Shown one piece after another: positions 2,554 through 64,000 of a stretch of DNA of 64,000 bases; the stretch's first letter is position 1, and the number at the start of each line of letters is the position of its first letter. The translations under genes and the position numbers were made by a program. The stretch spans positions 5,089,001 to 5,153,000 of the forward strand of contig OY783198.1 of NCBI GenBank assembly GCA_963678675.1. Direction: 5' to 3'. This DNA is from Xiphydria camelus. Taxonomy: Eukaryota > Arthropoda > Insecta > Hymenoptera > Xiphydriidae. The notes below the pieces were generated by a model that worked only from the letters and a program-made list of their open reading frames with translations, searched no databases and was not told the origin of the DNA.

Positions 2554-5500
2554 ATGAGAATCAACGCGACGAAGATGAGCACTCCGATCGAGGAGAGGAT
2601 CGACCAGAAACTAAAGGTACGTGCGAGAAAGTGTTTTTTTTTTATTTCGTTCTGTTATTGCTTTATTTTTATACCGCGATCTTTGAGATCAATAACTCGA
2701 GGGGTTGGAAGCTCGCCGCTCTCGCGACTGCAGCAGTGAGACTTGCACGCGACTCGTTGCAATTTCCCACGTAAATCGTTGGCGTTTCTTTGAATATTTG
2801 ACGAATTCGAATATAGTGCGAGATACAGAAGTGACGACGATGTAGCTTTTCTGTTTTCGACCGAAGAACGAGCTTCGTTCGTCGCGCGTTCATTTTGACA
2901 GGGCAGTTGGTTGCTGTCAGTGTGCAGTAGGGTTGATCTGTGTACGATCATAATTATACTTTCTTAATTTCGCATACCTAGATTATACTGGCAACTCCTG
3001 GTTTTCAAGCGAGCTTCAAATTTTTTCGTGAATTATTTACTTTGCCCTGTCCTCAGATTTACTTCTTTTCCGATTATCTTATTCATTTTACTAAAGCTGA
3101 TCACGCGTTTCAAGCGCGTATTTTGTAACGTATGTAGGCCATTGGAAGGATTTATTTCCCATTATTGATTTACTCGTTCTATTGTTGGATTACCAGCTAA
3201 TTTTTTAATGCTGATAGGACTAGGGCATATTAGGTATTCTGATCAAAAGACATTGCTCGGCGAGTATACATGACTCGTCGACATTGTACGGATAATTAAT
3301 AACGATTATTTTTTCAGAAGATATTAAGAACCCAGTTCTTTGCGTGAGATAAAATTAAATAACAATTTTGTACATTTATCTGACTAAATTTTGTTCTGAT
3401 AACCATGAAGGATCGTCACAAGGATGAATCTTCATTTAAGTTACATGTAGGTAAAGATTTATTAAAATTTTTCATTAACCAAATGCTTGTTGTGAATTAG
3501 TATGTCGCGAGCCTCTCGTGTTTGAAAACGGACGAAATGCTGTGTTGTTGATTGTTATTAAAGTTGAGAAAAATAGGCTTGATGAAACAATGATACTTTG
3601 TTGTCACTGTTTCGTATTATTCGTGCGATGAGGATTTCTGAGAAGGAATGATAGAAAAAGAAGACGGACATTTGAACTGTGTTTTATGTGCTTTCGAAGC
3701 ATCGCATTCCTTTTAGCGACCGTTGAACTGTTTCGTATTTATTTGAAAAGGTCCGGACGGGGATGGTAACGGTCAGCGATGGCAAAAGTAAGCCGGTACC
3801 TATGCGTTTGCATTTGTCTATGGAAGTCTTGAAGCTTCAGAGAGAAGACTTGGAGGTAAAGTGTGCTTTTCTTTATTCCATTCGTCTACAGCCCTACTGT
3901 TATTTTATTTAATGATATCGCTGCAACTCCAGCCATACACGCGAGATTGATACAGCATGTACGCATGGTGCTGATAATAGAGTACTAATTGTAAAGCTAA
4001 CAACTGTTAAGTTACGCTTCCATTTAACTTTTGTAGGCGTTTGATTAGTTTTGTAATGGTAGCTTTATACGTTCGTATATGGAGTACACAAAATGTATAG
4101 AAGGGAAAAAAAAGAGAAATTATTTTTAGCAGGCAGCAAATCACAATAAACCTCCATTGGATGCTAAAGAGCGAATGGTTCAGATTACAAGGCAAAAAGT
4201 CGGAGGGTTGGGGTTGAGCATAAAGGGTGGCGCCGAGCATAAACTTCCGGTACTAATATCCAGAATCTACAAGGGTCAGGCGGCTGATCAATGTGGTCAG
4301 TTGTTCGTAGGAGATGCAATTATCAAGGGTGAGCGAAATTGATTTTGCACGGATTTCAGAAGCACTAAAACTTATAGTCAAACCGAGATATCGTTTGTCT
4401 AGATCGTTCACGATTTTCCCCCTTGGTTTTTCTCTGAAATACTAAACTAGAACAACAATTCAGTTAGAATTTTCCCATCGAATCGCGCAAATAAAGCGAC
4501 GCGTAACTGAGCGGCGCGACAGCTTCGGTAAAACGCGTTTAAATCTCTGGATGTGGAAACGATATCAGCCAGGAGGACTATTACATTTCGTCCTTTGAAA
4601 CGTGCTCTGACAGTTTTGCAATAGTTGGAAAGACCCCTTTTGTGCTTTGCAGCAGTTGGCTAGAGTTTACTTGTATTTATTTGCCAGGCGTGGGAATGGC
4701 GGTAGTTCTACACATCCCATTGTTATTTCTTTCATTCTTCACGCGTCGTATATTCAATTCAATAAAGTCAAAGTTTGCGATGGGTTTTTGCATTATTATA
4801 TATACGTACACAGGTTTGAAGGCCAATGAAAATAGATTCCATTACTTGTATTGGTTTTACAGTTAATGGGGAATACATAACAGCGTGTAATCACGATGAT
4901 GCCGTTAACATCCTTCGAAATGCTGGCGATCTCGTAGTCCTGACTGTGAAACATTATCGCGCGGCAAAACCATTTTTACAAAAGAACGGTGAGCGAACCG
5001 CAAAGAAATACCTTGCCGCGGAATTTGTAATTCAAATACTTTTGATTTTATAACGCGTTTGCATTTCTTATGTCAATCTCGCAATAGAGAAAGAGGAGAA
5101 ATTAGATAACGTCGCAAATGGTGGCACGGAAGACGGTTGGGTCTCGCCCAGTAGAAGGGCCGGTAGTCCTAGGTGTGGTCATAGCAGGCACAGTTCAAAC
5201 GCGTCATCCGCATCGACGCATGATAAGAAATGGATCGATGTTATTACAGGTGGGCAATCCTTTTGGATTTTTTCGCAGAAACGGGATTTCCATTCTAAAT
5301 GTCATCTCGTTTCAGTACCTTTAATGATGGCGTACGTAACCAGATACATCTTTGGAACTGACAAATTGAGACGAAATGCCTTTGAAGTGCGAGGTCTCAA
5401 TGGAACACGTACGGGGGTGATACATTGCGACGACAGTGCTATTCTCAGCCAGTGGTTGAAGTATATTACGGACAATATCACAGGCCTGACACATTTACAG

Positions 5501-6796
5501 GTGACTTTCATATTTTTTAACAGCTCTTTTGAGGTTCCATTATAATTGATATCATTATAGATAAAGAAACCGCTTTTTGCCGCTTATTTTTCTTTCACAT
5601 CAAAGTATTGTCATTCACGTAACACATTCTCAGACGTTTCATTATCGATTCCTCGAATCAGATGAAGCTGTATAATCGGAATTTCGGAGTAGGCGAACGT
5701 ATAGAATACATGGGGTGGGTTAACGAGGCTGTGAGCAATAGCAATCAACCGTGGCAGAGCTATAGACCTAGATTTCTAGCACTCAAAGGTCCCGACTTGC
5801 TACTCTTTGAAACGCCACCCGTAAGTGTTCTTCACGTATATCACGTAGCAGTAGAGGGGAGAGGCTCGCGGTAGACAATGGCGTTCGCTTCAATAGCGAT
5901 TATCTTTTTATTATGAAGTTGGAGTAAGAGTTTCTATAAGATTTTTTGGAGATCGTGATTGATGGGGACGCTGTTGTATCTCCTCGTTTCTTGATTAATT
6001 AATTGCGATATAAAATTAGATCAATGACACTTTATAATTTGATACTTGCAGTGCAACATCGGAGATTGGTCACGCTGCGCGCTTACTTTCAAAGTCTATC
6101 AAACGATGTTCCGTGTAATGAAGGAATCGGAGAACGTTGACGAGAGGCAACATTGTTTCTTAGTTCAAAGTCCCGGCAAACCGCCTCGATATCTCAGCGT
6201 TGAGACTCGGCAAGAACTTCTAAGGGTCGAAGCAGCGTGGCACACCGCCGTTTGCTCGGCCGTGACTCATCTGAAGGTTAGTTAACATTTCTATGGTTAC
6301 TTTTCATGGCAGTACGGTTTCACAAAATGTTCCGTTTGACGAATACTCGTGTTTCGTTACAGAGTAAAACGTTTCCGGTAACGTCAAACGGCAGAGCTGC
6401 GGCTTTGACTTTGGAGTGGACTCAAGGATTTACGCTCTCCTGCGAGGGTATCGGAGAGAGCGTGTGGAGATATAAGTTTTCGCAATTAAGAGGATCCAGC
6501 GACGACGGGAAGAGCAGACTCAAATTGCATTTTCAAGAACCCGATAGTATCGCTATTGAAACTAAGGTGATTATTTATTTATTCTCTCTAAAGAGTAGGA
6601 ATAAAAAAAATAAGAATGGAATGAAATTTCACACAGGAAGATTGTAAACGGCAACTGTACGATTCGATATCTTTTTTTTTTGTTGCAGGAATTGGAATGC
6701 TCTCAACTGCAAAACTTGCTTTTTTGTATGCACGCTTTTCTCACAGCCAAGGTCGCCGCGGTTGACCCAACGTTTCTGACCACCACAACTCCGTAA
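2554..6796 (+). CDS. Gamma-syntrophin, ten coding exons, complete
   Basis: Adaptor of the dystrophin complex at the membrane cytoskeleton. Exons: 2554-2616 (alternative in-frame ATG 2575), 3751-3855, 4133-4328, 4863-4988, 5088-5249, 5316-5500, 5662-5820, 6052-6276, 6363-6566, 6689-6796. All junctions have GT/AG sites and keep the frame. The product is 503 residues from ATG 2575 or 510 from ATG 2554; human SNTG1 is about 517. A short N-terminal PH1 half (VPMRLHLSMEVLKLQ) precedes a PDZ domain at roughly residues 60-148, with ligand loop GGLGLSIKGGAEH and the helix NHDDAVNILRNAGD. PH2 follows (TRYIFGTDKLRRNAFEVRG, EYMGWV, FLALKGPDLLLFETPP), then the syntrophin-unique end with WRYKFSQLRGSSDDGKS and AFLTAKVAAVDPTFL. 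These strings match gamma- rather than alpha/beta-syntrophins. It ends LTTTTP, with a shorter tail than vertebrate SNTG1. Partner binding is family knowledge. Confidence 0.93.
3751..3855 (+). CDS. Gamma-syntrophin exon 2 (PH1 first half)
   Basis: This 105-nt phase 0-0 exon encodes VRTGMVTVSDG.. to ..LKLQREDLE and aligns with the residues before the PDZ domain in vertebrate SNTG1. The acceptor is AAAAG at 3746-3750 with a weak pyrimidine tract; the donor GTAAAG starts at 3856. Confidence 0.85.
4133..4328 (+). CDS. Gamma-syntrophin exon 3 (PDZ, first part)
   Basis: This 196-nt exon carries the PDZ ligand-binding loop VGGLGLSIKGGAEH. It ends in phase 1 at G4328 before GTGAGC, so the valine of VNGEY is split with exon 4 (4863-4988). 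The acceptor is TTTTTAGCAG, ending at 4132. Confidence 0.88.
5316..5500 (+). CDS. Gamma-syntrophin exon 6 (PH2)
   Basis: The exon starts in phase 1 and ends in phase 0. It encodes the start of the PH2 domain with the strings VTRYIFGTDKL and GVIHCDDSAILSQWLKYI, corresponding to the SNTG1 segment that ends in a WLQAI-like helix. The preceding short intron, 5250-5315, is only 66 nt, within the normal insect range. Confidence 0.9.
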
Positions 6797-18742: not shown

Positions 18743-21169
18743 TAAACACGAGTACAGGCGTTCGTCTCCGCGCGGCCACCCGCCTCGACCATTTCGGGCC
18801 GCGCTGGCGAAACGGCATCGGGCGTGTTACGAGGAGGGCTGGCTGCCCCCGTTGTAGTTCAGGGTGCGTGGGCGACCCTCTTCGACGTCGCCCACGCGAC
18901 CCGCAGCACGCGGCGAGAGCCACGCCGCTTCGAGCAACATCCACCAGTGCGCCGGGGACCACCACCTTGCCGGTTTCCAGGATTTCCCTGTATTCCGATC
19001 TCGACCGCGCGCGGCACGCGTGTCACGCTCCGCGAGAGAAGCCGCCGACATCGACGGGGTGGGACGCGGGAAGAGGAGGGATAGTTCGATGTACCGCGGA
19101 AAACGAAGCGAAATACGAAAACAGTTCGCCGACGGTACGCGCGCAAAGTGGTTCCGAGGCGCCGGAGTGTCTCGGGATTCGTAGATCCGACGTCGTCGCA
19201 CCGCGGAGAATTTCTCGGATCGTCAGATTCGATTTCGGCACCGCGCGCTCTTCGTTGCACGGAATTCCGTCTATCACGCGGCGCGAGAAAAAAAGAGAGC
19301 CGCGGTTCGACAGCTCGAAAACAATAACAGTGGTCGCGCGCTTCGCGGACGGGTTTTTCTCATAGCGGCACGGCTGGAGTGGGGGAGACACGGGCGACGG
19401 CTACCGAATTCCTGTCGGTACGAGTTCGAGGTGCCGAGGGAATGGGATCGGTCGTGGATATATTCTTCGTCTCGTCACGGGGAATGGGAGGCACGCTGTA
19501 ACGTCGAACGGTATCGGTGAGGGTGGGAGCGAGACGCGGAGTGGTGGGAGATTTTGGAAAACGAGGTGGGTCGGATATTTCATCGTGGCTGCATATTTTG
19601 TCGTATGTTTGTTTCCTTTCGCGGTTCGCTAAAGGTAGTTTACGCTGTCGAGATTGAAAAGAGAAGCAATTTGACGCTTACATACTTAGCATTTTAATTC
19701 TTCATAGATTCTATGAAAATACTACTATCAAAATTTGCAATTGTCATCAAGTGTTTGGCTATCAGATCGTTTGATATCTTCTTAACCCAATAAAGCCTGG
19801 GTAATTTTTCTCCTACCAGGGAACAGCTGTTAAATAAACGATTGAAAAATGAGCTGCTTTGACAAATAAATACTTAAAACTTTATATATCAAGATCAACA
19901 TATATAATATCCACGAGATTTCTCATAAAAACGAATTTTTTTTTATCGGCGTTACAAACACACGGTTTTAATTTCGAACGTAACCTCCGTATGATAAATC
20001 ATACGATAGGCTGTATTGGGTTAAGATCATTGATACGTCGTCGGTATTCTTTCGTGAGGAGCGTTTGCGAAGTTCCGATGAATTTTGTTGAATTCCCATT
20101 AAACTTCTGTATAAAGATAATTAAACAAAAAATTGCCGGATACCCGTGACACAATAGACGCACTTCACAGTTCGATCAAAAAATAAAGAACGCATCTCGC
20201 GTCGCGATCGAATCGTACGAATTTACTTCGACTCGACACTCGACAATTTCATTTCCGATTCATGATTAGCGATTTTTCGATGGATATTACAGAGCAACTC
20301 GTTGAGCTCGAGGACCATCGATCCGCGACGGACCTTATCGCCGCGGTGGAAAAGGGAAGCGTCCTCCGAAAAATAAGGGATTAATTTAGCGCCGGGCGGC
20401 GGTGGTACAAAGAGCGCCGGAAAAACGTCGAGGGATTCGGGAAACCGAGGCGACCTCCCTTTGCGGCGTCTTCATCTCGAGATCGGAGGCGGGTAACGAG
20501 GTGAGACTTTTTTTATTTCGTTCTACGTCGACGCGACTGGAAGAGGGGTCGCGGGATACGGGAGGCTGCGGATCGACGGGAGGAATCGAGTACCGCGGGA
20601 GCAGACCGCATCGAGGAGTCGTGGTGCATCGGATGCGGCGGGAGGCTCGTCTTCTTCCTCGGAGATGTGAGTGCATTTTTTTCTTCCCATTTTTCTCGCG
20701 CGTAGCTCTCCGCGTCGCGTGGCCGAAGCTGCGCCGAAGCGTTGACGGAGCTTGCCGCGCGTCCATCTACCGCAGCATCGGAGGATCGCATCGCGAGGAC
20801 TGCAACGATCGTCCGTCGCGGCTTCGGGGGAGCATGGAGGACTATCGCCACGCCTGGAACATCGGAGCGATGCGCGATCTTCTTCCCTTCTACACTTCCG
20901 GTGTCGCGTAGCGGGGCGAAACGGAGCGATGGACGTCATGCGGTGAGTTGGACAAATTATTATCTTTCACCTGGAAACGATTAATTCGGGATTGTCGATG
21001 TTTTATATTCGACGCGTGTATTATACTTTGGAAACGCGGGTGTGTACTGGAGAGAGTACCTATTTCGTTTGAGAAAAGTACTCGAACGGTGAGAAACATC
21101 GGTATCAGATTCTCAATTGAGAACGACTTGAATACCGATCGATTGAACGACGATATCCGGAATACTGCA
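18743..21169. other. CpG-rich stretch with open frames on both strands; no supported gene
   Basis: 18.7-19.6 kb and 20.3-20.95 kb are GC-rich and open in several frames at once, the longest 259 codons. None has a start context, splice partners or recognisable domains. It could be a CpG-rich promoter or non-coding exon; nothing in the sequence shows which. Confidence 0.4.
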
Positions 21170-25559: not shown

Positions 25560-26810
25560 AATGACCATGATTTTCGTAATCAGCGTGAACGAATATGTGG
25601 AGTAAGGTGAATCAGCGATCGATTCCAGAGATTTGCATTTTAAGCTAAATGTCAAGATTTTCGAAAATATTAAAATCTTCGGAATTGAAGTCTCGACCAC
25701 CCTATCCGATGTATTTTTTGACGCTGATTCCGAAAATCACTATTATATTGATGAAATCTCAAAGGAAGGCCGAGATATCGATGATTTTTCGTGAAAAAAA
25801 TAATTTTTTTCTACACAAAATCGCGGATAACTTATATTTCCTTTACGATATCGACCTAATGACCATGATTTTCGGAATCAGCGTCAAAAATACATCGGAT
25901 AGGGTGGTCGAGAGATCGATTTTAGAGACTTCAATTTTCGCGAAAAATTGAAAAAACTTAAGCTATAGCCTTAGATTTTGACAAAAATCGAAATCTCTGG
26001 AATCGAACTCTCGACCATCCTATCTTATGTATTTTTTCGCGCAGATTACGAAAATTATAGATATATCGAGGATATCTCAAAGGAAGACCGAGATATCGAT
26101 GATTTTTCGTGAAAAAAATAATTTTCGGGTACATGAAATCACCGATATCTTATATTTCCTTTGAGATATCGTCAATATATCTGTCATTTTCGGAATCAGC
26201 GTGAAAAAATACATCGGATAGGGTGGTCGAGAGATCGATTTAAGAGATTTCGATTTTTGCGAAAAATCTAAGGCATACCCCTTAGATTTTGACAAAAATC
26301 GAAATCTCTGGAATCGAACTCTCGACCATCCTATCTTATGTATTTTTTCGTGCTGATTATGAAAATCATGTTCATTAGGTCGATATCGCAAAGGAAATAT
26401 AAGTTATCAGCGATTTTGTGTAGAAAAAAATTATTTTTTTCACGAGAAATCATCGATATCTCGGCCTTCCTTTGAGATTGCATCAATATAATAGTGATTT
26501 TTGGAATCAGCGTCAAAAAATACGTCGGATAGGGTGGTCGAGACTTCAATTTCGAAGATTTAAATTTTTTCAAAAAATTTGACATTTTGCTTAAAATGCA
26601 AATCTCTGGAATCGATCACCGATCCACCTTATTCCATATATTTTTTCACGCTGATTACGAAAGTCATGGTCATTAGGTCGATATCGTAAAGGAAATTCAA
26701 GTTATCAGCGATTTTGTGTAGAAAACAATCATTTTTTCACGAAAAATCATCGATATCTCGGCCTTCCTTTCAGATTTCATCAATACAATAGCAATTTTCG
26801 GAAACCTCAA
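25560..26810. repeat. Array of interlocked inverted repeats, block 2
   Basis: The same building blocks as 17080-18030 (GATATCTCAAAGGAAG, AATCAGCGT.AAAAAATAC, GGATAGGGTGGTCGAGA and complements), repeated about four times in alternating orientation. Strongly self-complementary along its whole length. No gene. Confidence 0.72.
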
Positions 26811-49911: not shown

Positions 49912-50532
49912 TCAATGATGTGCCGGCGCCGGCAGCGGCACTGGCGGCGAATGCGGCCTATGCTGCGGCGGCGGCGGCGGCGGCGGTGGCAGCGAATGCG
50001 GATTTTTCGCGTTTTCTAGCGCAACTGCCACAATCTGTCTCGCCTCGTTGCGCGCGATTTGCCTCATTCTATCCGCGTCTTTTTCGGCCATTTTTTTCAC
50101 CTGTTCCGCCTCGGCAAACAATTCGTGGGCCCCCTGGCGCGCCGAGTTCATGATGTCCTTCCCCTCGGCCTTTACACTGTCCAGCATCTTTTGAACATCG
50201 GCCATCATGAGCTCTCTCATTCGCGCCACATCGGCTTCGGCGGCTTTCATCAACCTCGCCGACTCGTTGTCGGCGGATATCTTCTGCTTGTCCGCCTCCT
50301 CTCTCGCCCATTTCATCAAGATCTTCGCGTTATCCTGCTCGGCCTTCGTTACGTTTCTCACGTGTTGGTTCACAATGTGCATGATTCTCCTCGCTTCGTG
50401 TTGTGTGTCTCTCGAGATGTTCGACGCCACGGCGTTCATGGACATCTCCATTCTGGTAATGATATCTAACAGGACGTCCAAGTTACGGATCGCCGCGACT
50501 TCTGCGGCGTCTAAGCCGACGGACGGGTTCAG
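49912..50532 (-). CDS. Gene A last exon: long Ala/charged helix and Pro-His tail
   Basis: 207 codons including TGA. The acceptor GTCGAATTTCAG before 50532 gives LNPSVGLDAAEVAAIRN in phase 0. An upstream open stretch to 50574 exists only because the intron end is open. About 165 residues follow that are rich in Ala, Glu, Lys, Arg, Met and Asp (for example LMKAAEADVARMRELM, KKMAEKDADRMRQIARN) with no proline, predicting a long amphipathic helix or coiled coil. Then NPHSLPPPPPPPP and HSPPVPLPAPAHH. No family recognised; the Ala-rich helix is loosely reminiscent of hymenopteran coiled-coil silks, a weak resemblance. Confidence 0.75.
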   Translation of the reverse strand: MNPSVGLDAAEVAAIRNLDVLLDIITRMEMSMNAVASNISRDTQHEARRIMHIVNQHVRNVTKAEQDNAKILMKWAREEADKQKISADNESARLMKAAEADVARMRELMMADVQKMLDSVKAEGKDIMNSARQGAHELFAEAEQVKKMAEKDADRMRQIARNEARQIVAVALENAKNPHSLPPPPPPPPQHRPHSPPVPLPAPAHH

Positions 50533-53500
50533 CTGAAATTCGACAGGAAGGACGAAGTCTTTAAAGCCGGTCATACACGAAACGGTATACCTGACAGGGA
50601 AAAAATATATAAATTATAGAGATTTTTTTCCGGTCGCCTGTACGGATAGGGATGTCTGCACGTTTTGTCACATACCATATATGAGGCTAAACTTACTCGT
50701 CAGGAAAGAAACTCAAATCACCGTTATCTCATTATCAATGAACTTTTGGCCTATATCGATATAAGACTTTATCGCAGATGAAAACATAATCTTGAAGAAA
50801 GTATTATACAAATATGAGCTAAAATATCATAGGTAACGAGTAGGAATAGTGTGATTGAAGTTTCTTTCTTAAGTAATTACCAAGTGTCTGTAACAAAATA
50901 AATCGCTCCCCTCCGGTAGCGAATCCCGATCGAGCGATCGTTCGCTTGGATAAACAACTCGCGCTCGGCTGTTGTTTATTCGCTCGAACGATCGCTTACT
51001 TGATTGCCCGATCTCGATCAAATTGAAGGACGGTCTGCAAACACTCGTGGTTGCAGACGTTCCGTCGTTCCTCCAATCTCATGCGGATGCTGGGTTGTCA
51101 TTGCGCCCCCGTTGAAGTTCGACAGAGAGAGGAGGATGGCTTTGAATCTCAAAAATCATTTTTAAACTTACTTGCACTCGTTTGATTCATGATCGTATCG
51201 TTTGAGCGATCATTTATTTTGCAAGGAATTTATACACGTTTATATAAGATTGCGTTTAAGCGACATTTGCCAATACATCTGGTCATTGTTATATTGAAAC
51301 GAACGATTAGTACAGTCGATTGGCCGGGGAACCAGGTACAGGTCTGAACGCAGGATTCATAACATTCGCCTGCAGTCCCGCGCATCTTAGATTCGAGCAT
51401 GGCTGAAATTCGACACAGAAAGGAGGAAAGTTTAATTGAAAAATCTTCCTAACGACTTTCGTTCGGTTTCGTTTGTAACGAATACACGCGCGTTTCAAAA
51501 ATGGTATCTGGACGATGTTCGTTGACAGATTCGGTTATCGTTATCGAAACGAATGGTCACTTACTTGATAGGCCGGCAGACATGGCGGTTCACTGCATAA
51601 TAAATTCCGCTGACGTCCGATTAGTTGAGCGAGTGAAGCCCGGTTGATAAATCTCGAACGCGGCACCTGTCGAAAGGAGGAATGCGTTGAGTCTCGAGTT
51701 TCTTGAGGTAATGTGAGTGAATCTAGTTGTTTCACTAGACAGACAAATCTGTGCTTACCGTCCAACACCACTCGATTGTGACACGACACTAGATGCCCGG
51801 TTACATTACCGGCGAACAAATATCTTGCCTCTGGGAGGTCATGATCGTCACATTCTTTTATTTAAACAGGCGCGAACTGGAATAGCTACTGGCTGCTTAA
51901 TGCCGGTACACTTGATTAAATTTCAAAATGCATTTACCCGAGAAGGGTTTTATCGATTGTCGTTGGTAAGCTCATAAAAGAGCCAATATTTTGCGACGAA
52001 TGTGTTCTATCACGTGTAACACTGTACACGATGAAAAATTCTGCGGTGCGGACCTGTATAGATAAGTTTTGGTGTTAGATAACAATGGCACAAGACTGAA
52101 CGACACCACACACACAGATATGGTAAATATATCTCTGCACAGGTGAAATGGTGTTAAAAATTTGCACCACTTTGTTTACCGTGTACGCCAATTGATACAG
52201 AATCTTCTGAAACGGATATATGTATAACCCCACCAATTTGGGCACTCTCTCTCCCGATTGATGGATTCTCGAATTTTCACTTTTTCGAAGTGATGGTAAC
52301 AACGAATCTCGAAAACCGCCCGAACAAATGTCCACTTTCTGCGTAAAAGGACGTGGGACAACGAGAAACGAATCATCGAGTATCCTCCCGAAAGTTCACC
52401 CTAAGATACTGGAGTCCTCGAAAAAAAAAAGAAATTTCCCCGCTCAATCGATTATCGATTTTATTGCATAAATGAACGCGGAGTATCGAGGAATGAATTG
52501 TCGAGCATCCCTTGAAATTGCACCGAAAGTTATCGGAGTTCTTGGAAAAAAAATTTGCCCGAGCGCGGATAGCAATTTTATCGTATGAGTGGACGCGGAG
52601 TATCGAGGAATGAGTCGTCGAGCATCCTTTCGAGGCTCCACCGAAGGATTTACGAGTTCCAAAAAGAAAAAAAAACCGCTCGAGCGAATGATAATTCTTT
52701 TTCATAAATGGACGTAGGGTAAACTAGCTAGATTCGCTCGTATTGCTCAGCTATGCTCGTCTCCATAAAAGTTATATTCCCGACGAGCGCAGACATTCTA
52801 TCCCTGAGAGTACGCGGCTCTAAAATTACATCTGGACAATATCGATCGACAGATTCGGTTGTTGTTATCGGAGCGAATGATCGCTTACCTGATTGGCCAA
52901 TGAGATGGCTGGTCGATTGATTGGTTGTTGCATCGCAGGACGTCTGATTTGGTTAACGGGCGGTTGTCTCCCGAGCATCAGACTCGGCTGCTGTTGAGAG
53001 ACGATAAAAAGAAGGAATGCCTTGAGTTTTCAATTTTTAAAGTTTGCTCACGCCCATTGAATAACGATTTTTAATCGTATACGCGAGTTCTCGTTCGTTC
53101 GACATTGATTTTGTACGCGTTCGTAAAATTACATCTGGATGACATTTGCCGATTGATTTGGCTATTTTTATCGAAGCAAATGCTGTTATTTACCTGGTTG
53201 GTTACGCCGATCCGAGGTCCGACCGATTGAGCATACGGTTGCATGAACGGTTGAGCGGGTCGACCGAACTGATAGGCGTACGGTTGTTGAGAGTACGGCC
53301 GAGCGATACTATTCATTGGCTGTCTTATGGCACTTTGCTGAAGCTTGATACAAAAAGGAGAAATGCATCGTCTCAGATTTGTTAACTTTACTTGCTCCCT
53401 TTCGGCAATGCATTTCGACAGTAGTGCTAGAGTGATCGTCTAATATATCGCTGAGTTAATGCAGAACTAGTCTATGTCTATTGTACTCTTCGTGACATAG

Positions 53501-56500
53501 AATAGTTTTGCACTAACCCTGCGATATACATATGATGTATATTATGAGTTTACATGCATAGTAAAGTTATGTCTATGCGACACTCGCGAACTTATTTGAT
53601 TAGTCATGCACTTACTTGAGATACTCGTGGTACGGCAGATGCGGGTGCAGGGGGCGACGCAGGGGGCGACGCAGGGGGCGACGCAGGGGGCAACTCAGAG
53701 GACGATGCAGGGGGCGACTCAGGGGGCGACGCAGGGGGCGACGCAGGGGGCGACGCAGGGGGCGACGCAGGGGGCAACTCAGAGGACGATGCAGGGGATG
53801 ACTCAGGGGGCGACGCAGGGGGCAACTCAGAGGACGATGCAGGGGGCGACGCAGGGGGCGACGCAGGGGGCGACGCAGGGGGCGACGCAGGGGGCAACTC
53901 AGAGGACGATGCAGGGGATGACTCAGGGGGCGACGCAGGGGGCGACGCAGGGGGCAACTCAGAGGACGATGCAGGGGGCGACGCAGGGGGCGACGCAGGG
54001 GGCGACGCAGGGGGCGACGCAGGGGGCAACTCAGAGGACGATGCAGGGGGCGACGCAGGGGGCAACTCAGAGGACGATGCAGGGGGCGACGCAGGGGGCG
54101 ACGCAGGGGGCGACGCAGGGGGCGACGCAGGGGGAAACTCAGAGGGCGACACAGGGGGCGACGCAGGGGGCGACGCAGGGGGCAACTCAGAGGACGATGC
54201 AGGGGGCGACGCAGGGGGCGACGCAGGGAGCGACGCAGGGGCAGATGCATCATCCTCTTCAGCTAGAGCTTCCCGTCTAGGTCTATCTCCTGGTAGAGGT
54301 AGAGGTGCAGGCAAAGGTAGTGGCGGAGGAGGGGGTACCTCGCGTTTAATCAACTACGCATAGTAAATAACGTACGGCGCGCTTAGTAAATTACGCATAG
54401 TAAAGTCACACCTATGCGACATCCATGCGACATTCGCGAACTTATTTGATTATTATTGGCGAAGTCAATGAGCACTTACTTCAGGGGTCCCAGGTCCTTG
54501 AGCTTCCCGTTTTGGAATAGGTCCACGTGGAGCTGAAGGCTTAGGGGTTGGCGGAGGAGGGGGTCTGGCTTCGCGCTTAGTCAACTACGCATAGTAAAAA
54601 ACGTAGGTCGCGCTTAGTAAATTACGCATAGTAAAGTCACACCTATGCGACACCTATGCGACACTCGCGAACTTATTTGATTATTATTGGCGAAGTCAAT
54701 GAGCACTTACTTCAGGGGTCCCAGGTCCTTGAGCTTCCCGTTTTGGAATAGGTCCACGTGGAGCTGAAGGCTTAGGGGTTGGCGGAGGAGGGGGTCTGGC
54801 TTCTCGCTTAGTCAACTACGCATAGTAAAAAACGTAGGTCGCGCTTAGTAAATTACGCATTAGTAAATTACGCATAGTAAAGTCACACCTATGCGACACC
54901 TATGCGACACTCGCGAACTTATTTGATTATTATTGTCGAAGTCAAATGAGCACTTATACTTTAGATGTTGGTAATACGGGAGGTATGGCTACAGGGAGCA
55001 ACCCAGGGGCAGGTGCCTGTTTAGCTGGAGCTTCCCGTTTGGGTCTATTTCCTGGTAGAAGACGAGGTACAGGCAAAGGTAGTCGCGTAAGAAGGGGTAC
55101 CTCGCGTTTAGTCAACTACACACATAGTAAATAACGTACGGCGCGCTTAGTAAATTACGCATTAGTAAATTACGCATAGTAAAGTCACACCTATGCGACA
55201 CCTATGCGACACTCGTGAACTTATTTGATTATTATTGTTGAAGTCAATGAGCACTTACTTCAGGGGTCCCAGGTCCTTGAGCTTCCCGTTTTGGAATAGG
55301 TCCACGTGGAGCTGAAGGCTTAGGGGTTGGCGGAGGAGGGGGTCTGGCTTCTCGCTTAGTCAACTACGCATAGTAAAAACGTAGGGCGCGCTTAGTAAAT
55401 GACGAATTAGTAAATTACGCATAGTAAAGTCATACTTATGCGACACCTATGCGACACTCGTGAACTTATTTGATTATTATTGTCGAAGTCATTGAGCACT
55501 TACTTCAGGGGTCCCAGGTCCTTGAGCATCCAGTTTTGGAATAGGTCCACGTGGAGCTGAAGGCTTAGGGGTTGGCGGAGGAGGAGGTCTGGCTTCTCGC
55601 TTAGTCAACTACGCATAGTAAAAACGTAGGGCGCGCTTAGTAAATTACGAATTAGTAAATTACGCATAGTAAAGTCATACGTATGCGACACCTATGCGAT
55701 ACTCGTGAACTTATTTAATTATTATTGTCGAAGTCAATGAGCACTTACTTCAGGGTTCCCAGGTCCTTGAGCTTCTCGTTTTGGAATAGGTCCACGTGGA
55801 GCTGAAGGCTTAGGGGTTGGCGGAGGAGGATCTCTGGCGTCGCGCTTAGTCAACTACGCATAGTAAAAAACGTAGGGCGCGCTTAGTAAATTACGCATTA
55901 GTAAATTACGCATAGTAAAGTCACACCTATGCGACACCTATGCGATACTCGTGAACTTATTTAATTATTATTGTCGAAGTCAATGAGCACTTACTTCAGG
56001 GTTCCCAGGTCCTTGAGCTTCTCGTTTTGGAATAGGTCCACGTGGAGCTGAAGGCTTAGGGGTTGGCGGAGGAGGATCTCTGGCGTCGCGCTTAGTCAAC
56101 TACGCATAGTAAAAAACGTAGGGCGCGCTTAGTAAATTACGCATTAGTAAATTACGCATAGTAAAGTCACACCTATGCGACACCTATGCGACACTCGTGA
56201 ACTTATTTGATTATTATTGTCGAAGTCAATGAGCACTTACTTCAGGGGTCCCAGGTCCTTGAGCTTCCCGTTTTGGAATAGGTCCACGTGGAGCTGAAGG
56301 CTTAGGGGTTGGCGGAGGAGGGGGTCTGGCTTCTCGCTTAGTCAACTACGCATAGTAAAAACGTAGGGCGCGCTTAGAAAATTACGAATTAGTAAATTAC
56401 GCATAGTAAAGTCATACCTATGCGACACCTATGCGATACTCGTGAACTTATTTAATTATTATTGTCGAAGTCAATGAGCACTTACTTCAGGGTTCCCAGG

Positions 56501-57175
56501 TCCTTGAGCTTCTCGTTTTGGAATAGGTCCACGTGGAGCTGAAGGCTTAGGGGTTGGCGGAGGAGGATCTCTGGCGTCGCGCTTAGTCAACTACGCATAG
56601 TAAAAAACGTAGGGCGCGCTTAGTAAATTACGCATTAGTAAATTACGCATAGTAAAGTCACACCTATGCGACACCTATGCGACACTCGTGAACTTTTTTG
56701 ATTATTATTGTCGAAGTCAATGAGCACTTACTTCAGGGGTCCCAGGTCCTTGAGCTTCCCGTTTTGGAATAGGTCCACGTGGAGCTGAAGGCTTAGGGGT
56801 TGGCGGTGGAGGGGGTCTGGCTTCGCGCTTAGTCAACTACGCATAGTAAAAAACATAGGGCGCGCTTAGTAAATTACGCATTAGTAAATTACGCATAGTA
56901 AAGTCACACCTATGCGACACCTATGCGACACTCGCGAACTTATTTGATTATTATTGTCGAAGTCAATGAGCACTTACTTGAGATTCTTGTGATACGGCAG
57001 GTGCGGGTGTACCCAAAGGGTACTCACCTCCTCTCACACGTTCATTGGCGCGCTTGGAAACAGTTTTTATGATGTGTGGGGCATCGACTGGCGTTTCAGC
57101 ACTGCCAAACGGCAGCACCGCTACAGTCAGAACTGACACGATCCCAAGAAAAACGACGCGAAACTTCATTGTCAC
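49912..57175 (-). CDS. Secreted proline-rich tandem-exon precursor (gene A), unrecognised family
   Basis: Exons in coding order: 57175-56978; 96-nt units 56827-56732, 56581-56486, 56336-56241, 56090-55995, 55844-55749, 55599-55504, 55354-55259; 55100-54960 (141 nt); 96-nt units 54806-54711, 54575-54480; 54338-53616 (723 nt); 53337-53194; 52990-52889; 51666-51565; 50532-49912. Every internal exon starts and ends in phase 0, giving about 964 residues. Order: signal peptide, a Lys-Arg propeptide site, repeated Pro-rich units of the form R(E/D)AR-PPPP..PKREAQGPG-(T/N)PE, an A-S-P-P minisatellite region, Gln/Pro-rich segments, then a long Ala/charged helix and a Pro-His tail. No known domain is recognised. 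Dibasic sites between Pro-rich units recall apidaecin-type precursors, but a structural secreted protein is also possible. The exon model is inferred from splice signals and repeat periodicity. Confidence 0.75.
51000..51110 (-). pseudogene. Decayed exon copy in gene A
   Basis: The donor CAA|GTAAGC and the pyrimidine tract CCTCCTCTCTCTGTCGAACTTC match sister exons. The acceptor AG is now AAC and the 37-codon frame contains one TGA near its end. It is a duplicated exon that has lost function. Confidence 0.6.
51307..51402 (-). CDS. Alternative terminal exon or dying exon copy of gene A
   Basis: A proper acceptor (TTTCCTCCTTTCTGTGTCGAATTTCAG) precedes 31 codons starting PCSNLRCAGLQANV and ending PANRLY before TAA at 51307. 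Where sister exons have CAG|GTAAG, this copy has CGACTG, so the donor is lost and the frame runs into a stop. If used, it would give a shorter protein without the C-terminal helix; otherwise it is skipped. Confidence 0.45.
   Translation of the reverse strand, partial: PCSNLRCAGLQANVMNPAFRPVPGSPANRLY
51565..51666 (-). CDS. Gene A exon with a CxxxxC motif (34 codons)
   Basis: 102 nt, phase 0-0, acceptor TTCCTCCTTTCGACAG, donor CAA|GTAAGT. Encodes VPRSRFINRASLAQLIGRQR then NLLCSEPPCLPAYQ. The two cysteines are unusual in this otherwise almost cysteine-free protein. Confidence 0.68.
52376..52730. repeat. Three tandem units of about 118 bp in a gene A intron
   Basis: Each carries GTCGAGCATCC-like, CACCGAAAG-like, an A-run, CGCTCGAGCG-like and GGACGCGGAGTATCGAGGAAT-like blocks in the same order. 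Intronic, no coding role seen. Confidence 0.65.
52889..52990 (-). CDS. Gene A Gln/Pro-rich exon (34 codons)
   Basis: 102 nt, phase 0-0, acceptor TTCCTTCTTTTTATCGTC..ACAG, donor CAG|GTAAGC. Encodes QPSLMLGRQPPVNQIRRPAM and ends ISLANQ; it contains an Arg-Arg. Intron flanks match those of 51565-51666. Confidence 0.7.
53194..53337 (-). CDS. Gene A Gln/Pro/Tyr-rich exon (48 codons)
   Basis: A 144-nt phase 0-0 exon with a good acceptor (TTTCTCCTTTTTGTATC..TTCAG) and donor CAG|GTAAAT. Encodes QSAIRQPMNSIARPYSQQPY and further Gln/Pro/Tyr repeats, ending GVTNQ. No known domain. The flanking introns resemble those of the next two exons, so these exons are themselves duplicated copies. Confidence 0.7.
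53616..54338 (-). CDS. Gene A giant repeat exon (241 codons), A-S-P-P minisatellite
   Basis: Starts like the long-type exons (VPPPPPLPLPAPLP.. GDRPRREALAEEDDAS) with an Arg-Arg site. It then expands a 12-bp unit encoding Ala-Ser-Pro-Pro about fifty times, with a regularly interspersed variant ASSSELPP, before ending ASAVPRVSQ at CAA|GTAAGT. The acceptor is CGCGAG before 54338. Length is a multiple of three and no stop occurs in this frame. Low complexity makes alternative frames open as well, but only this one matches the splice phases. Confidence 0.78.
53640..54245 (+). repeat. 12-bp G-rich minisatellite (CGACGCAGGGGG)
   Basis: About 50 units, each with a G5 run on the + strand, and a 24-bp variant (CAACTCAGAGGACGATGCAG) at intervals, producing a higher-order pattern. 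It lies entirely within the coding exon 53616-54338 of the minus strand. Confidence 0.92.
54480..56827 (-). repeat. Tandem array of nine 96-nt exons and one 141-nt exon with their introns
   Basis: Unit period is about 245 bp, exon and intron together, and copies are nearly identical even in the introns. Each 96-nt exon starts after GACTAAG with CGC or CGA (Arg) and ends GAA|GTAAGTGCTC. Canonical units encode REARPPPPPTPKPSAPRGPIP then KREAQGPGTPE. Units 56486-56581, 55995-56090 and 55749-55844 begin RDARDPPPP and end GNPE. Unit 55504-55599 has Lys-Leu-Asp in place of Lys-Arg-Glu, losing the dibasic site. Introns contain doubled motifs (TAGTAAATTACGCAT, ACCTATGCGAC) and a second upstream copy of the CTAAG|CGCG acceptor. 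Confidence 0.82.
54960..55100 (-). CDS. Gene A long-type repeat exon (47 codons)
   Basis: Encodes VPLLTRLPLP.. GNRPKREAPAKQAPAPG.. PPVLPTSK. It belongs to the long type that dominates the second locus. Its donor reads AAA|GTATAAGTG: two bases (TA) are inserted in the usual GTAAGTG, so the 5' splice site is weakened. Without splicing here the frame stops two codons on. Confidence 0.75.
56978..57175 (-). CDS. Gene A exon 1: signal peptide and propeptide
   Basis: 66 codons. MTMKFRVVFLGIVSVLTVAV is followed by LPFGSA, a classic signal peptide with basic start, hydrophobic core and an A-x-A-like cut before ETPVD. A Lys-Arg at residues 41-42 (TVSKR / ANERV) is a likely proprotein-convertase site. 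The exon ends with VSQESQ at CAA|GTAAGT in phase 0, matching the phase of all downstream exons. A second good donor, GTGAGT at 57027, lies inside the exon but would shift the frame. Confidence 0.8.
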
Positions 57176-57213: not shown

Positions 57214-57248
57214 TGACACCCGCTACTAGGTCTCCTTTCGTTTATATA
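57214..57248 (-). promoter_or_regulatory. Core promoter of gene A (TATA box and initiator)
   Basis: On the minus strand TATATAAA (57248-57241) is followed about 34 bases later by TCAG (57216-57213), an initiator-like start, and then about 40 bases to the ATG at 57175. This supports 57175 as the true translation start. An imperfect palindrome (ACGGATC / GATCCGT) lies upstream near 57277-57313. Confidence 0.55.
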
Positions 57249-57369
57249 CGTTTTTGTACGTACTGGAAAACTCGTGGATCACGGATCTCAATAAAATCGT
57301 CACGATCCGTAATCGTGCGCCGGGGTTGTATTGAATAACGATCGCCTTGCGTTGTTATCGTCGGAAGTA

Positions 57370-57596
57370 CACTGAGAAAACAGTTTATTTATACTTAAGA
57401 TATATATACTTGATTATGGCGAAAGAAATATTTTTTTGGGCCGAGCAAATATTCTTTAGCTAATACTCTATTTCTGTTTGAATGAAGGAGACATTCTAAT
57501 AATTAACATAGATTTACTTGGCCCTGTAAAATATTTCTCTCTTTCGCCATAATCAAGTACACATTTATTAGCTACAAATAAACTCTTTTCTCAGTG
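57370..57596. mobile_element. MITE family A, intact copy upstream of gene A
   Basis: 227 bp, CACTGAGAAAACAGTTTATTT to AATAAACTCTTTTCTCAGTG. TA on the left flank, TG on the right. Sits about 120 bp upstream of the gene A TATA box. Confidence 0.78.
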
Positions 57597-58084
57597 TGCG
57601 GATATAGTTTACGTAATTCGAATGATTCGCTAAGCTCGGTGATAAAGGTGAACTTTGCGAAATTTCGTATGATACTCTTCGCGCAATGGGATACATCTAC
57701 TTGTAGTTTTTATTCATTACGCCGCGAGGGGAAACAATGATGTTGCGCAAACTAAGCGACGATGCGCGTCGACTTAACGCATTTGATTCTTGGGTAAAGC
57801 ATTTAATAAATGCAATGATTTTTTTTTAACAATAATTATATATTTTCATGGTTCAGAGCTGACGGTCGAAGCGGAAGTGCTCGAATGTGAGCTATCACAT
57901 ACGAAAATATAGAATTATCGTTGAAAGGAAAAAAAGGAGTTTATGAATAAATATTAAGAAATGAATGAACAATATATTAAGAACTAAAAGCATAAAAAAT
58001 ATAGATGTAGTATCAACAAATGAAAGTAATATATTCGCAAATCACTTTCCTTTTGCTCTTCTCGAAAAGTTTCGATGTTTCCTG
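57597..58084. other. Intergenic; nothing recognised
   Basis: AT-rich sequence between two MITEs; no exon or motif supported. Confidence 0.4.
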
Positions 58085-61373: not shown

Positions 61374-61484
61374 TCAATGATGTGGCGGCGGCGGCGGTGG
61401 CTGCGAATGCGGATGTATCGCGTTTTGTCTATCTCCTGGTAGAGGTGCAGGCAAACGTGGTGGCGGAGGAGGGAGTGCGGCGCG
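61374..61484 (-). CDS. Gene B last exon: repeat exon fused to the gene A tail
   Basis: Encodes RAALPPPPPRLPAPLPGDR, as in long-type repeat exons, then QNAIHPHSQPPPPPPHH and TGA, which matches the end of gene A (ENAKNPHSLPPPPPP..AHH). The junction falls at about 61421-61428, where both parents share AAACG. The fusion removes the Lys-Arg site and the whole helical domain but stays in frame. Confidence 0.75.
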   Translation of the reverse strand, partial: RAALPPPPPRLPAPLPGDRQNAIHPHSQPPPPPPHH

Positions 61485-64000
61485 CTTAGTCAACTACGCA
61501 TAGTAAATAACGTACGGCGCGCTTAGCAAATTACGCATTAGTAAATTACACATAGTAAAGTTACACCTATGCGACACCTATGCGACACTCGCGAACTTAT
61601 TTGATTATTATTGTCGAAGTCAATGAGCACTTACTTGAGATGTTGGTAATACGTGAGGTATGTCTACAGGGAGCAACCCAGGGGCAGGTGCCGGTTTAGC
61701 TTGAGCTTCCCGTTTGGGTCTATCTCCTGGTAGAGGTGCAGGCAAAAGTGGTGGCGGAGGAGGGGGTACCTCGCGTTTATTCAACTACGCATAGTAAATA
61801 ACGTACGACGCACTTAGTAAATTACGCATAGTAAGGTCACACCTATGCGACACTCGCGGACTTATTTGATTATTATTGTCGAAGTCAATGAGCACTTACT
61901 AGAGGTAATGGTAATACGGGAGGTAGGGTTACACCAAGCAACTCAGGGGCAGGTGCCGGTTTAGCTTGAGCTTCCCGTTTGGGTCTATCTCCTGGTAGAG
62001 GTGCAGGCAAAAGTGGTGGCGGAGGAGGGGGTACCTCGCGTTTATTCAACTACGCATAGTGAATAACGTGCGGCGCACTTAGTAAATTACGCATAGTAAG
62101 GTCACACCTATGCGACACTCGCGGACTTATTTGATTATTATTGTCGAAGTCAATGAGCACTTACTAGAGGTAATGGTAATACGGGAGGTATGTCTACAGG
62201 GAGCAACCCAGGGGCAGGTGCCGGTTTAGCTTGAGCTTCCCGTTTGGGTCTATCTCCTGGTAGAGGTGCAGGCAAAAGTGGTGGCGGAGGAGGGGGTACC
62301 TCGCGTTTATTCAACTACGCATAGTAAATAACGTACGGCGCACTTAGTAAATTACGCATAGTAAGGTCACACCTATGCGACACTCGCGGACTTATTTGAT
62401 TATTATTGTCGAAGTCAATGAGCACTTACAGGTGATGGTAATACGGGAGGTACGGTTACAGGAAGCAACTCAGGGGCAGGTGCCGGTTTAGCTTGAGCTT
62501 CCCGTTTGGGTCTATCTCCTGGTAGAGGTGCAGGCAAAAGTGGTGGCGGAGGAGGGGGTACCTCGCGTTTATTCAACTACGCATAGTAAATAACGTACGG
62601 CGCACTAAGTAAATTACGCATAGTAAGGTCACACCTATGCGACACTCGCGGACTTATTTGATTATTATTGTCGAAGTCAATGAGCACTTACTAGAGGTAA
62701 TGGTAATACGGGAGGTAGGGTTACACCAAGCAACTCAGAGGCAGGTGCCGGTTTAGCTTGAGCTTCCCGTTTGGGTCTATCTCCTGACGGAGGTGGATGC
62801 ACATGGAGTGCAGGCACAGGTGGTGGCGGAGGATGGTGTATGGCGCGCTTAGTAAGCTACGCATAGTAAATAACGTATGGCGCGCTTAGTAAAATACGCA
62901 TATTAAATTATGCATAGTAAAGTCACACCTATGCGACACCTATGCGACACTCGCGAACTTATTTGATTATTATTGACGAAGTCAATGAGCACTTACTTGA
63001 AATGCTGGTGGTGGGCGTAAGCCAAGTCTGGGTCCAATGCCTGGTGGTGGTGCAGGGAAAGGTGGTGGCGGAGGAGGGCGTGCGGCGCGCTTAGTAAGCT
63101 ACGCATAGTAAATAACGTATGGCGCGCTTAGTAAATTACGCATTGGTAAATTACGCATATTAAATTACGCATAGTAAAGTCACACCTATGCGACACTCGT
63201 GAATTTATTTAATAATTATTGTCGAAGTCAATGAGCACTTACTTCAGGGTTCCCAGGTCCTTGAGCTTCTCGTTTTGGAATAGGTCCACGTGGAGCTGAA
63301 GGCTTAGGGGTTGGCGGAGGAGGAGGTCTGGCTTCTCGCTTAGTCAACTACGCATAGTAAAAACGTAAGGCGCGCTTAGTAAATTACGAATTAGTAAATT
63401 ACGCATAGTAAAGTCATACCTATGCGACACCTATGCGATACTCGTGAACTTATTTAATTATTATTGTCTAAGTCAATGAGCACTTACTTCAGGGTTCCCA
63501 GGTCCTTGAGCTTCTCGTTTTGGAATAGGTCCACGGGGAGCTGAAGGCTTAGGGGTTGGCGGAGGAGGAGGTCTGGCTTCTCGCTTAGTCAACTACGCAT
63601 AGTAAAAACGTAGGGCGCGCTTAGTAAATTACGAATTAGTAAATTACGCATAGTAAAGTCATACCTATGCGACACCTATGCGACACTCGTGAACTTATTT
63701 AATTATTATTGTTGAAGTCAATGAGCACTTACTTCAGGGGTCCCAGGTCCTTGAGCTTCCCGTTTTTGATGAGGTCCTGGTGGAGGTGTAGGCGTAGGGG
63801 TTGGCGGAGGAGGATCTCTGGCGTCGCGCTTAGTCAATTACGCATAGTAAAAAACGTAGGTCGCGCTTAGTAAATTAGGCATTAGTAAATTACGCATAGT
63901 AAAGTCACACCTATGCGACACCTATGCGATACTCGTGAACTTATTTGATTATTATTGTTGAAGTCAATGAGCACTTACTCGATGTCTTTTTGTAGGGGGA
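61374..64000 (-). CDS. Second proline-rich tandem-exon precursor (gene B), 5'-partial
   Basis: Exons in coding order: 64000-63979 (partial, ..PPTKRHR), 63828-63733, 63583-63488, 63338-63243 (96 nt each), 63089-62997 (93), 62847-62692 (156), 62561-62430 (132), 62299-62165, 62034-61900, 61769-61635 (135 each), 61484-61374 (last). All are phase 0-0 with the same GTAAGTGCTC donors as gene A. The 135-nt units encode VPPPPPPLLPAPLPGDRP, then KREAQAKPAPAPG, then LLPV..PPVLP. After Lys-Arg the residues read as X-Ala/X-Pro pairs (EA-QA-KP-AP-AP), the pattern trimmed by dipeptidyl peptidases in apidaecin and melittin precursors. The first exon and signal peptide lie beyond the window. It has no long C-terminal helix. 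Function is inferred only. Confidence 0.72.
62997..63089 (-). CDS. Gene B divergent repeat exon (31 codons)
   Basis: RAARPPPPPPFPAPPPGIGP then RLGLRPPPAFQ. It keeps phase and splice sites but has no dibasic site and no Glu-Ala pair, so it would not be released as a separate unit. Confidence 0.7.

Follow-up and report, generated by a model that had tools for sequence, protein, structure and literature searches.

The window considered here, 64,000 nucleotides (nt) of contig OY783198.1 of the hymenopteran Xiphydria camelus, carries on its minus strand two predicted genes in tandem, A and B, in which a leader exon is followed by a series of short, near-identical exons. The two genes would encode secreted precursors from which apidaecin-like cleavage and trimming would release many small peptides, probably for antibacterial defence, an interpretation held with moderate confidence.

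Gene A begins with a start codon at 57169 on the minus strand and ends with a stop codon at 49912; its predicted chain of 16 exons is stop-free over 999 residues, with all introns in phase 0. Its array consists of nine near-identical 105-nt exons, whose mean pairwise identity is 96%, and two divergent exons. The original prediction described a secreted proline-rich precursor built by tandem exon duplication, with a signal-peptide exon and ten phase 0-0 repeat exons; this is supported by the sequence, and these exons together with a large last exon are readable at 49912-57169. However, only nine of the ten units are nearly identical, as the tenth (55115-54960) is divergent and longer, and another divergent one (54353-53616) follows. 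The exon chain itself holds, but the sister gene B had been missed, three Q/P/R-rich exons can be added to the chain, as apparently can two decayed ones. The features of gene A are listed below, with Lys-Arg and Arg-Arg given as KR and RR.

57241..57248, minus strand: TATA-type box TATATAAA, about 75 nt upstream of the gene A ATG; the gene B equivalent is TATATAAG
56978..57169, minus strand: exon 1, predicted 24-residue signal peptide MKFRVVFLGIVSVLTVAVLPFGSA and pro-segment with one KR
56732..56836, minus strand: exon 2, class I unit LTKREARPPPPPTPKPSAPRGPIPKREAQGPGTPE
56486..56590, minus strand: exon 3, class I unit, KRDARD variant
56241..56345, minus strand: exon 4, class I unit
55995..56099, minus strand: exon 5, class I unit, KRDARD variant
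55749..55853, minus strand: exon 6, class I unit, KRDARD variant
55504..55608, minus strand: exon 7, class I unit without a second dibasic site (KLDA)
55259..55363, minus strand: exon 8, class I unit
54960..55115, minus strand: exon 9, divergent, class II-like, 156 nt, KREV and KREA; donor GTATAAGTG (GTATAAG) assigned by hand
54711..54815, minus strand: exon 10, class I unit
54480..54584, minus strand: exon 11, class I unit
53616..54353, minus strand: exon 12, divergent, 738 nt, KREV and RREA, then about 200 residues of PPAS/SSEL 12-nt repeats of mucin-like composition
53194..53337, minus strand: exon 13, Q/P/R-rich; intron resembles the array introns (0 of 500 shuffles)
52889..52990, minus strand: exon 14, Q/P/R-rich; intron resembles the array introns (0 of 500)
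51565..51666, minus strand: exon 15, Q/P/R-rich; intron resembles that of exon 14 (0 of 500), not the array directly (37 of 500)
51307..51402, minus strand: decayed sister exon outside the model, donor missing from its place, frame running into a stop
51000..51110, minus strand: decayed sister exon outside the model, without acceptor AG, in-frame stop
49912..50532, minus strand: last exon, 621 nt, 206 residues, predicted helical, with poly-Pro tail and stop

The hydrophobic run in exon 1 reaches a peak mean hydropathy of 2.5 over 11 residues. A small-residue end after such a run is a hallmark of signal peptides, and exon 1 fits it. For the last exon, structure prediction from the single sequence gives two long helices, at residues 9-38 and 41-176; the best of five models has a mean predicted local distance difference test (pLDDT) score of 77.9 and a predicted template modelling (pTM) score of 0.36, and the pLDDT of the other four is 61.6-65.2.

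Gene B is the tandem sister of gene A, with only 22 nt of its exon 1 inside the window. With the downstream acceptor at exon 2, it reads 485 residues to 61374 and combines class I and class II units, without a PPAS or helical exon.

63979..64000, minus strand: exon 1, last 22 nt; the remainder, with signal peptide MKFHIVFLGIVSVLTVAVLPFGSA, lies outside the window (L005 1146-979, minus strand)
63733..63837, minus strand: exon 2, class I unit
63488..63592, minus strand: exon 3, class I unit
63243..63347, minus strand: exon 4, class I unit
62997..63098, minus strand: exon 5, divergent unit, KRAA, without a second dibasic site
62692..62856, minus strand: exon 6, divergent unit, KRAI and KREA
62430..62576, minus strand: exon 7, class II unit LNKREVPPPPPPLLPAPLPGDRPKREAQAKPAPAPELLPVTVPPVLPSP
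62165..62314, minus strand: exon 8, class II unit
61900..62049, minus strand: exon 9, class II unit
61635..61784, minus strand: exon 10, class II unit
61374..61493, minus strand: last exon, KRAA, without a second dibasic site, stop

The processing signals depend on the choice of splice acceptor. Near the start of each array exon there are two AGs 9 nt apart, the upstream one being TTTACTATGCGTAG in most. The upstream acceptor is present in 20 of the 21 array exons of both genes and the downstream AG in 15, and the six exons without the latter are all class II-type units. The exon model uses the upstream acceptor throughout the array, with the sole exception of gene B exon 2. Because this acceptor brings in the residues L-T-K-R, each class I unit reads LTKR-EARPPPPPTPKPSAPRGPIP-KR-EAQGPGTPE and contains two Lys-Arg-Glu/Asp-Ala signals. 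The single Lys-Arg-Glu-Ala originally counted per unit, in nine of ten units, is correct for the downstream site, where one exon reads KLDA, but misses the additional site in class I. All 21 array exons have Lys-Arg at the first site; the next two residues are EA or DA in 12 exons, each of them class I, EV in six, AA in two and AI in one. A second dibasic site is present in 18. Over the whole gene A protein, 19 of the 24 KR/RR sites are followed by EA or DA; the corresponding figure in gene B is 11 of 19, and the spacer is one EA, not EAEPEAEP.

The exception, gene B exon 2, has TAA in place of the usual acceptor, and the acceptor 9 nt downstream is intact. Use of the latter removes the first KR, and the junction of exons 1 and 2 becomes KRHRR-DA, so a dibasic site would still form there; this is one case, which may have arisen by chance. 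Separately, introns of both arrays (e.g., 56837-56977) contain, by eye, copies of the acceptor region (TTTACTATGCGTAA, TTTACTAATGCGTAA) with TAA for TAG, as if they were silenced decoy acceptors.

The array was compared with what chance would give. None of the 25 exons examined has a stop in frame 0, and frames 1 and 2 contain stops save for one frame of one exon. The array exons have eight distinct lengths, every one a multiple of three (21 of 21 exons), and their introns leave remainders of 0, 1 and 2 in 10, 4 and 7 of 21 cases. Phase-0 exons were the object of the search; since exons and introns alternate without gaps in the array, no unit was passed over. The composition of the last exon yields a stop-free frame in 5 of 20,000 shuffles. 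The openness of 53616-54353 says little on coding, because the 12-nt PPAS repeat of exon 12, present in 49.6 copies, gives long open frames on both strands. In 5,000 residue shuffles of the 416-residue array, at most two [KR]R[ED]A motifs appeared, against the 19 seen; as the copies are not independent, the fair figure is that of a single 35-residue unit, in which two KR[ED]A arose once in 200,000 residue shuffles. The array has been recently homogenised, because its introns are as conserved as its exons: pairwise identity within gene A is 95.9% for both, and between A and B it is 93.5% for exons and 93.8% for introns. Among the 12 class I units, 4 of the variable sites are at codon position 1, 7 at position 2 and 8 at position 3.

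Comparison of the two genes suggests which parts were kept. About 430 nt upstream are 92% identical (408 aligned, 51 gapped positions), the signal peptides agree at 69 of 72 nt (96%), intron 1 is 95% identical, the 3′ ends with their 3′ flanks align (61412-61148 with 49956-49684), and both genes end in poly-Pro tails. The pro-segments give no alignment above shuffles (score -30; mean of 300 shuffles -37, maximum -7). A conserved leader with a changed pro-segment would be expected of a secreted product with a kept leader and changing cargo. In a DNA search of the 357-Mb genome, in which match counts are lower bounds, exon 1, intron 1 and the first unit, used together as the query, matched at least 22 places, all within C22:5142573-5153233; the matches found sit at one locus, and no dispersed copies were seen. 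The last exon has at least one protein match in its own genome; at the DNA level there are, in addition to the exon, at least three weak matches, including the gene B tail. The weak matches to its end at G000:C1:40377635-40377705 (E 4.7e-8) and C22:4540555-4540603 (E 5.7e-7) are probably poly-proline coding sequence.

The membership of the 3′ exons was assessed by scoring intron and acceptor similarity against shuffles (500 for introns, 1000 for acceptors). The intron after the second decayed exon does not resemble the array intron (127 of 500 shuffles reach the score) or that of exon 15 (454 of 500); for the exon 14 intron the figures are 8 of 500 against it and 17 of 500 against the place of the first decayed exon. 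The acceptor of the last exon is unlike those of exons 13, 14 and 15 (601, 567 and 186 of 1000), but around it the sequence is similar to the acceptor regions of both decayed exons (6 and 0 of 1000). Such figures speak against a single clean series. The place of the last exon in the chain depends on this likeness to its decayed neighbours. Exons 2-15 thus look like one duplication series, to which the last exon is tied more weakly.

For apidaecin and the hymenoptaecin of ants, the processing proposed in the literature comprises cleavage at dibasic sites, trimming by a carboxypeptidase and removal of E/D-A/P dipeptides (PMC3415428). Such processing is proposed here because the dibasic and E/D-A signals match. 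The predicted signal peptide would send the chain into the secretory pathway, where a Kex2- or furin-type protease would cleave after KR and a carboxypeptidase would take off the KR. A dipeptidyl peptidase would then remove the leading EA or DA and, given the enzymology of such peptidases, should halt at R-P-P or R-D-P. Class I units would leave RPPPPPTPKPSAPRGPIP and the acidic companion QGPGTPELT (net -1). The peptide dose would be governed by the duplication of exons in tandem and by their homogenisation. The 3′ part of gene A, with its PPAS and helical exons, would form a product of its own.

The trimmed class I peptide has 18 residues with a net charge of +3, ends SAPRGPIP and contains 10 prolines, which lies above the 14-49% described for natural proline-rich antimicrobial peptides (PrAMPs) (PMC11678341). 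Gene A would provide five exact copies, three of the DARD type and one fused through the KL site. In gene B, processing of the four class II units would release EVPPPPPPLLPAPLPGDRP and a companion of 26-27 residues, net -1 each, and gene A exon 9 would yield one +2 and one +1 peptide. Class I is the part of the predicted products resembling a cationic PrAMP.

In Apis mellifera, apidaecin is described as a leader followed by one 28-residue unit per exon, the number of units varying between haplotypes (Evans et al. 2006, PMC1847501), and the units of Apis cerana are given as 84 nt (PMC2617784). The original prediction regarded separate-exon units as a departure from apidaecin; one unit per exon is, instead, the published apidaecin plan, and the apidaecin-type logic that it proposed is borne out by the sequence. 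Genes A and B share with apidaecin a conserved leader, one unit per exon (by splice-site prediction), near-identical units in variable number, dibasic sites with an acidic E-A spacer within the E-A/P type, and a class I product predicted to be an 18-residue, cationic, proline-rich peptide. They differ from it in a unit of 105 instead of 84 nt, in two different peptides per unit, in the extra PPAS and helical exons of gene A, and in the presence of two predicted genes in tandem.

Other precursors share parts of this arrangement. The hymenoptaecin of Camponotus floridanus has repeats with RR/KR and an EAEP spacer, for which an endoprotease, a carboxypeptidase and a dipeptidyl peptidase were proposed (PMC3415428), but its repeats lie in a single exon and carry 97-residue glycine-rich domains; both proteins predicted here are proline-rich, and no Pfam match to such a domain was found in either. 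In Nasonia, antimicrobial genes are reported to have arisen by exon duplication and phase-0 exon shuffling (PMC2853521). Nasonin-6 resembles A and B in exon duplication with one repeat per exon, and the nabaecins in shuffling of exons at phase-0 introns (PMC2853521). Unlike A and B, the nasonins are defensin-like, with phase 1 introns and without processing signals, and the nabaecins combine one abaecin unit with one navitripenicin unit. Multi-peptide precursors of proline-rich peptides are also described from Galleria mellonella and Riptortus; one Galleria gene encodes an anionic peptide besides two proline-rich ones (PMC11678341).

Several observations weigh against an apidaecin-like antibacterial role. 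Most of the 71 peptides described from 45 bee and wasp species end in PRPPHPRL; 20 of 26 new peptides stalled ribosomes at stop codons, and the six without a ribosome effect were those deviating from apidaecin (PMC11549390). This ending, that of the type II PrAMPs, which inhibit bacteria by trapping the release factor on terminating ribosomes, is absent from class I, and PRPPHPR does not occur in the gene A protein. The Pro-Arg-Pro of type I PrAMPs (oncocin and pyrrhocoricin type), described as a motif of some PrAMPs only (PMC11678341), is found neither in the gene A protein nor in the window exons of gene B. The first site is followed by EV, AA or AI and not EA/DA in nine of 21 array exons, the class II peptides are not cationic, and introns are conserved as much as exons, with no excess of exon conservation. 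The published apidaecin genes compared contain nothing that corresponds to the PPAS and helical exons. Within 2 kb upstream of gene A there is no exact NF-kB-like site, and one-mismatch counts are near expectation. Genes A and B would most likely work like apidaecin, and are not classed as apidaecin because its defining C-terminus was tested for and is absent.

It is possible, at a lower level of credence, that the genes encode a structural secretion (silk, glue, egg coat or mucin-like), that is, one long protein in which KR sites are incidental or set the final length only. The roughly 200 residues of PPAS/SSEL repeats in exon 12, the two long helices predicted for the last exon, the poly-Pro tails of both genes and the equal homogenisation of exons and introns would all suit such a product. 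However, an E/D-A after 19 of 24 dibasic sites in gene A would be needless for a structural protein, and gene B has the KR units but neither the helical nor the PPAS exons. A multi-peptide precursor made for venom or saliva would employ the same KR and dipeptidyl-peptidase processing against a host or prey instead of bacteria. The very different pro-segments of A and B would be in keeping with this, but the full Pfam scan of both predicted proteins gave no family, and the idea is considered improbable.

The preservation of the frame bears on a further explanation, a decaying or unexpressed tandem array whose openness is a by-product of the recent copying of one coding exon. Equal exon and intron identity, the two decayed exons in A, the lost acceptor in B and the KL site are consistent with decay. 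The eight array exon lengths are nevertheless all multiples of three, against introns of all three remainders; both genes are open throughout, their upstream DNA, signal peptide and 3′ end are preserved, and the last-exon composition only rarely gives a stop-free frame in shuffles, so this explanation is very improbable. A tentative alternative keeps the processing and drops the ancestry: the locus may be a peptide system of its own without apidaecin descent, in which exon duplication multiplies a two-peptide exon cassette (cationic Pro-rich and acidic QGPG), the cassettes are combined with mucin-like and helical modules, and the choice between acceptors 9 nt apart decides whether a unit keeps its first cleavage site.

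The description of the precursor as new was examined with protein searches in a database including many hymenopteran proteomes; a hit had to share 5-residue words with the query and be 0.55-1.75 times as long. At E up to 0.01, no match was obtained for the last exon or for a 416-residue composite of exon 1, exon 9, the last exon, two units of class I and one of class II. The search for relatives of the unit and last exon, suggested with the original prediction, therefore found none within this limited reach. The control query SLC25A51 retrieved 261 proteins at E up to 1e-20; 120 of these were listed, from organisms that are, where recognised, all Hymenoptera. The closest among the matches listed are 77% identical (Cephus, Camponotus; BLASTP), or 74% over the tree columns. 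The failure to find a relative is weak evidence of novelty, because the window species has no close kin in the database and the peptide is fast-changing.

The whole predicted proteins A and B match no Pfam family at E up to 1, including that of abaecin (PF08026). The last exon alone gives weak Pfam matches, the best being ERp29 (E 0.058, under the cut-off), and an NCBIfam match to Scy (E 8.8e-06, 23.5 bits against a cut-off of 1040) was taken as coiled-coil likeness. Exon 1 with three units gave no NCBIfam match, and the 33-residue unit none in PDB. Among viral contigs, three pattern matches were seen, none related to the last exon, and an intron motif had no exact match. The apidaecin model PF00807 gave one match in the species' own genome (E 0.94, 18.9 bits against 23.1, with a stop in frame); it was rejected as chance, since the same search gave matches under the cut-off in 3 of 14 control genomes, and nothing precursor-like was seen by eye among the nearby open reading frames. 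Six unit peptide strings had no match in the literature searched. The precursor is thus undescribed as far as searched: its sequence, the two peptide series per unit and the link to PPAS-repeat and helical exons are new, and the plan is known.

If the apidaecin-like interpretation is true, the exon-per-peptide plan is used, with a peptide without the apidaecin pharmacophore, in a hymenopteran that a one-gene tree places outside the bee, ant and vespid group. The plan would then have outlived the sequence, or would have arisen twice. The class I peptide is a ready candidate for synthesis. The tree is that of SLC25A51, the mitochondrial NAD carrier, which lies at 377-1120 on the plus strand as an open frame of 248 residues. 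Besides the window sequence it includes 30 of the 120 proteins listed. No sister of the window is supported in it, and the window falls outside the four chalcidoid rows and, with moderate support, outside the ant, bee and vespid group.

A few further features of the locus were noted. A short element with inverted ends (CACTGAGAAA / TTTCTCAGTG) lies at 57369-57597, upstream of the gene A TATA box, and a similar one upstream of gene B (L005, about 1370-1600); isolated matches to these termini were seen at 21169, 30691 and 58295. The element looks like an insertion of the miniature inverted-repeat transposable element type that predates the A/B duplication. Open frames resembling syntrophin exons occur on the plus strand at 5054-5545, a PH domain just under the cut-off, and at 6282-6644, which matches Syntrophin_4th (E 8.5e-10). 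A tandem satellite of 311-312 bp, alike by eye on both sides, flanks the locus at 25673-26803 and L006 4654-5250.

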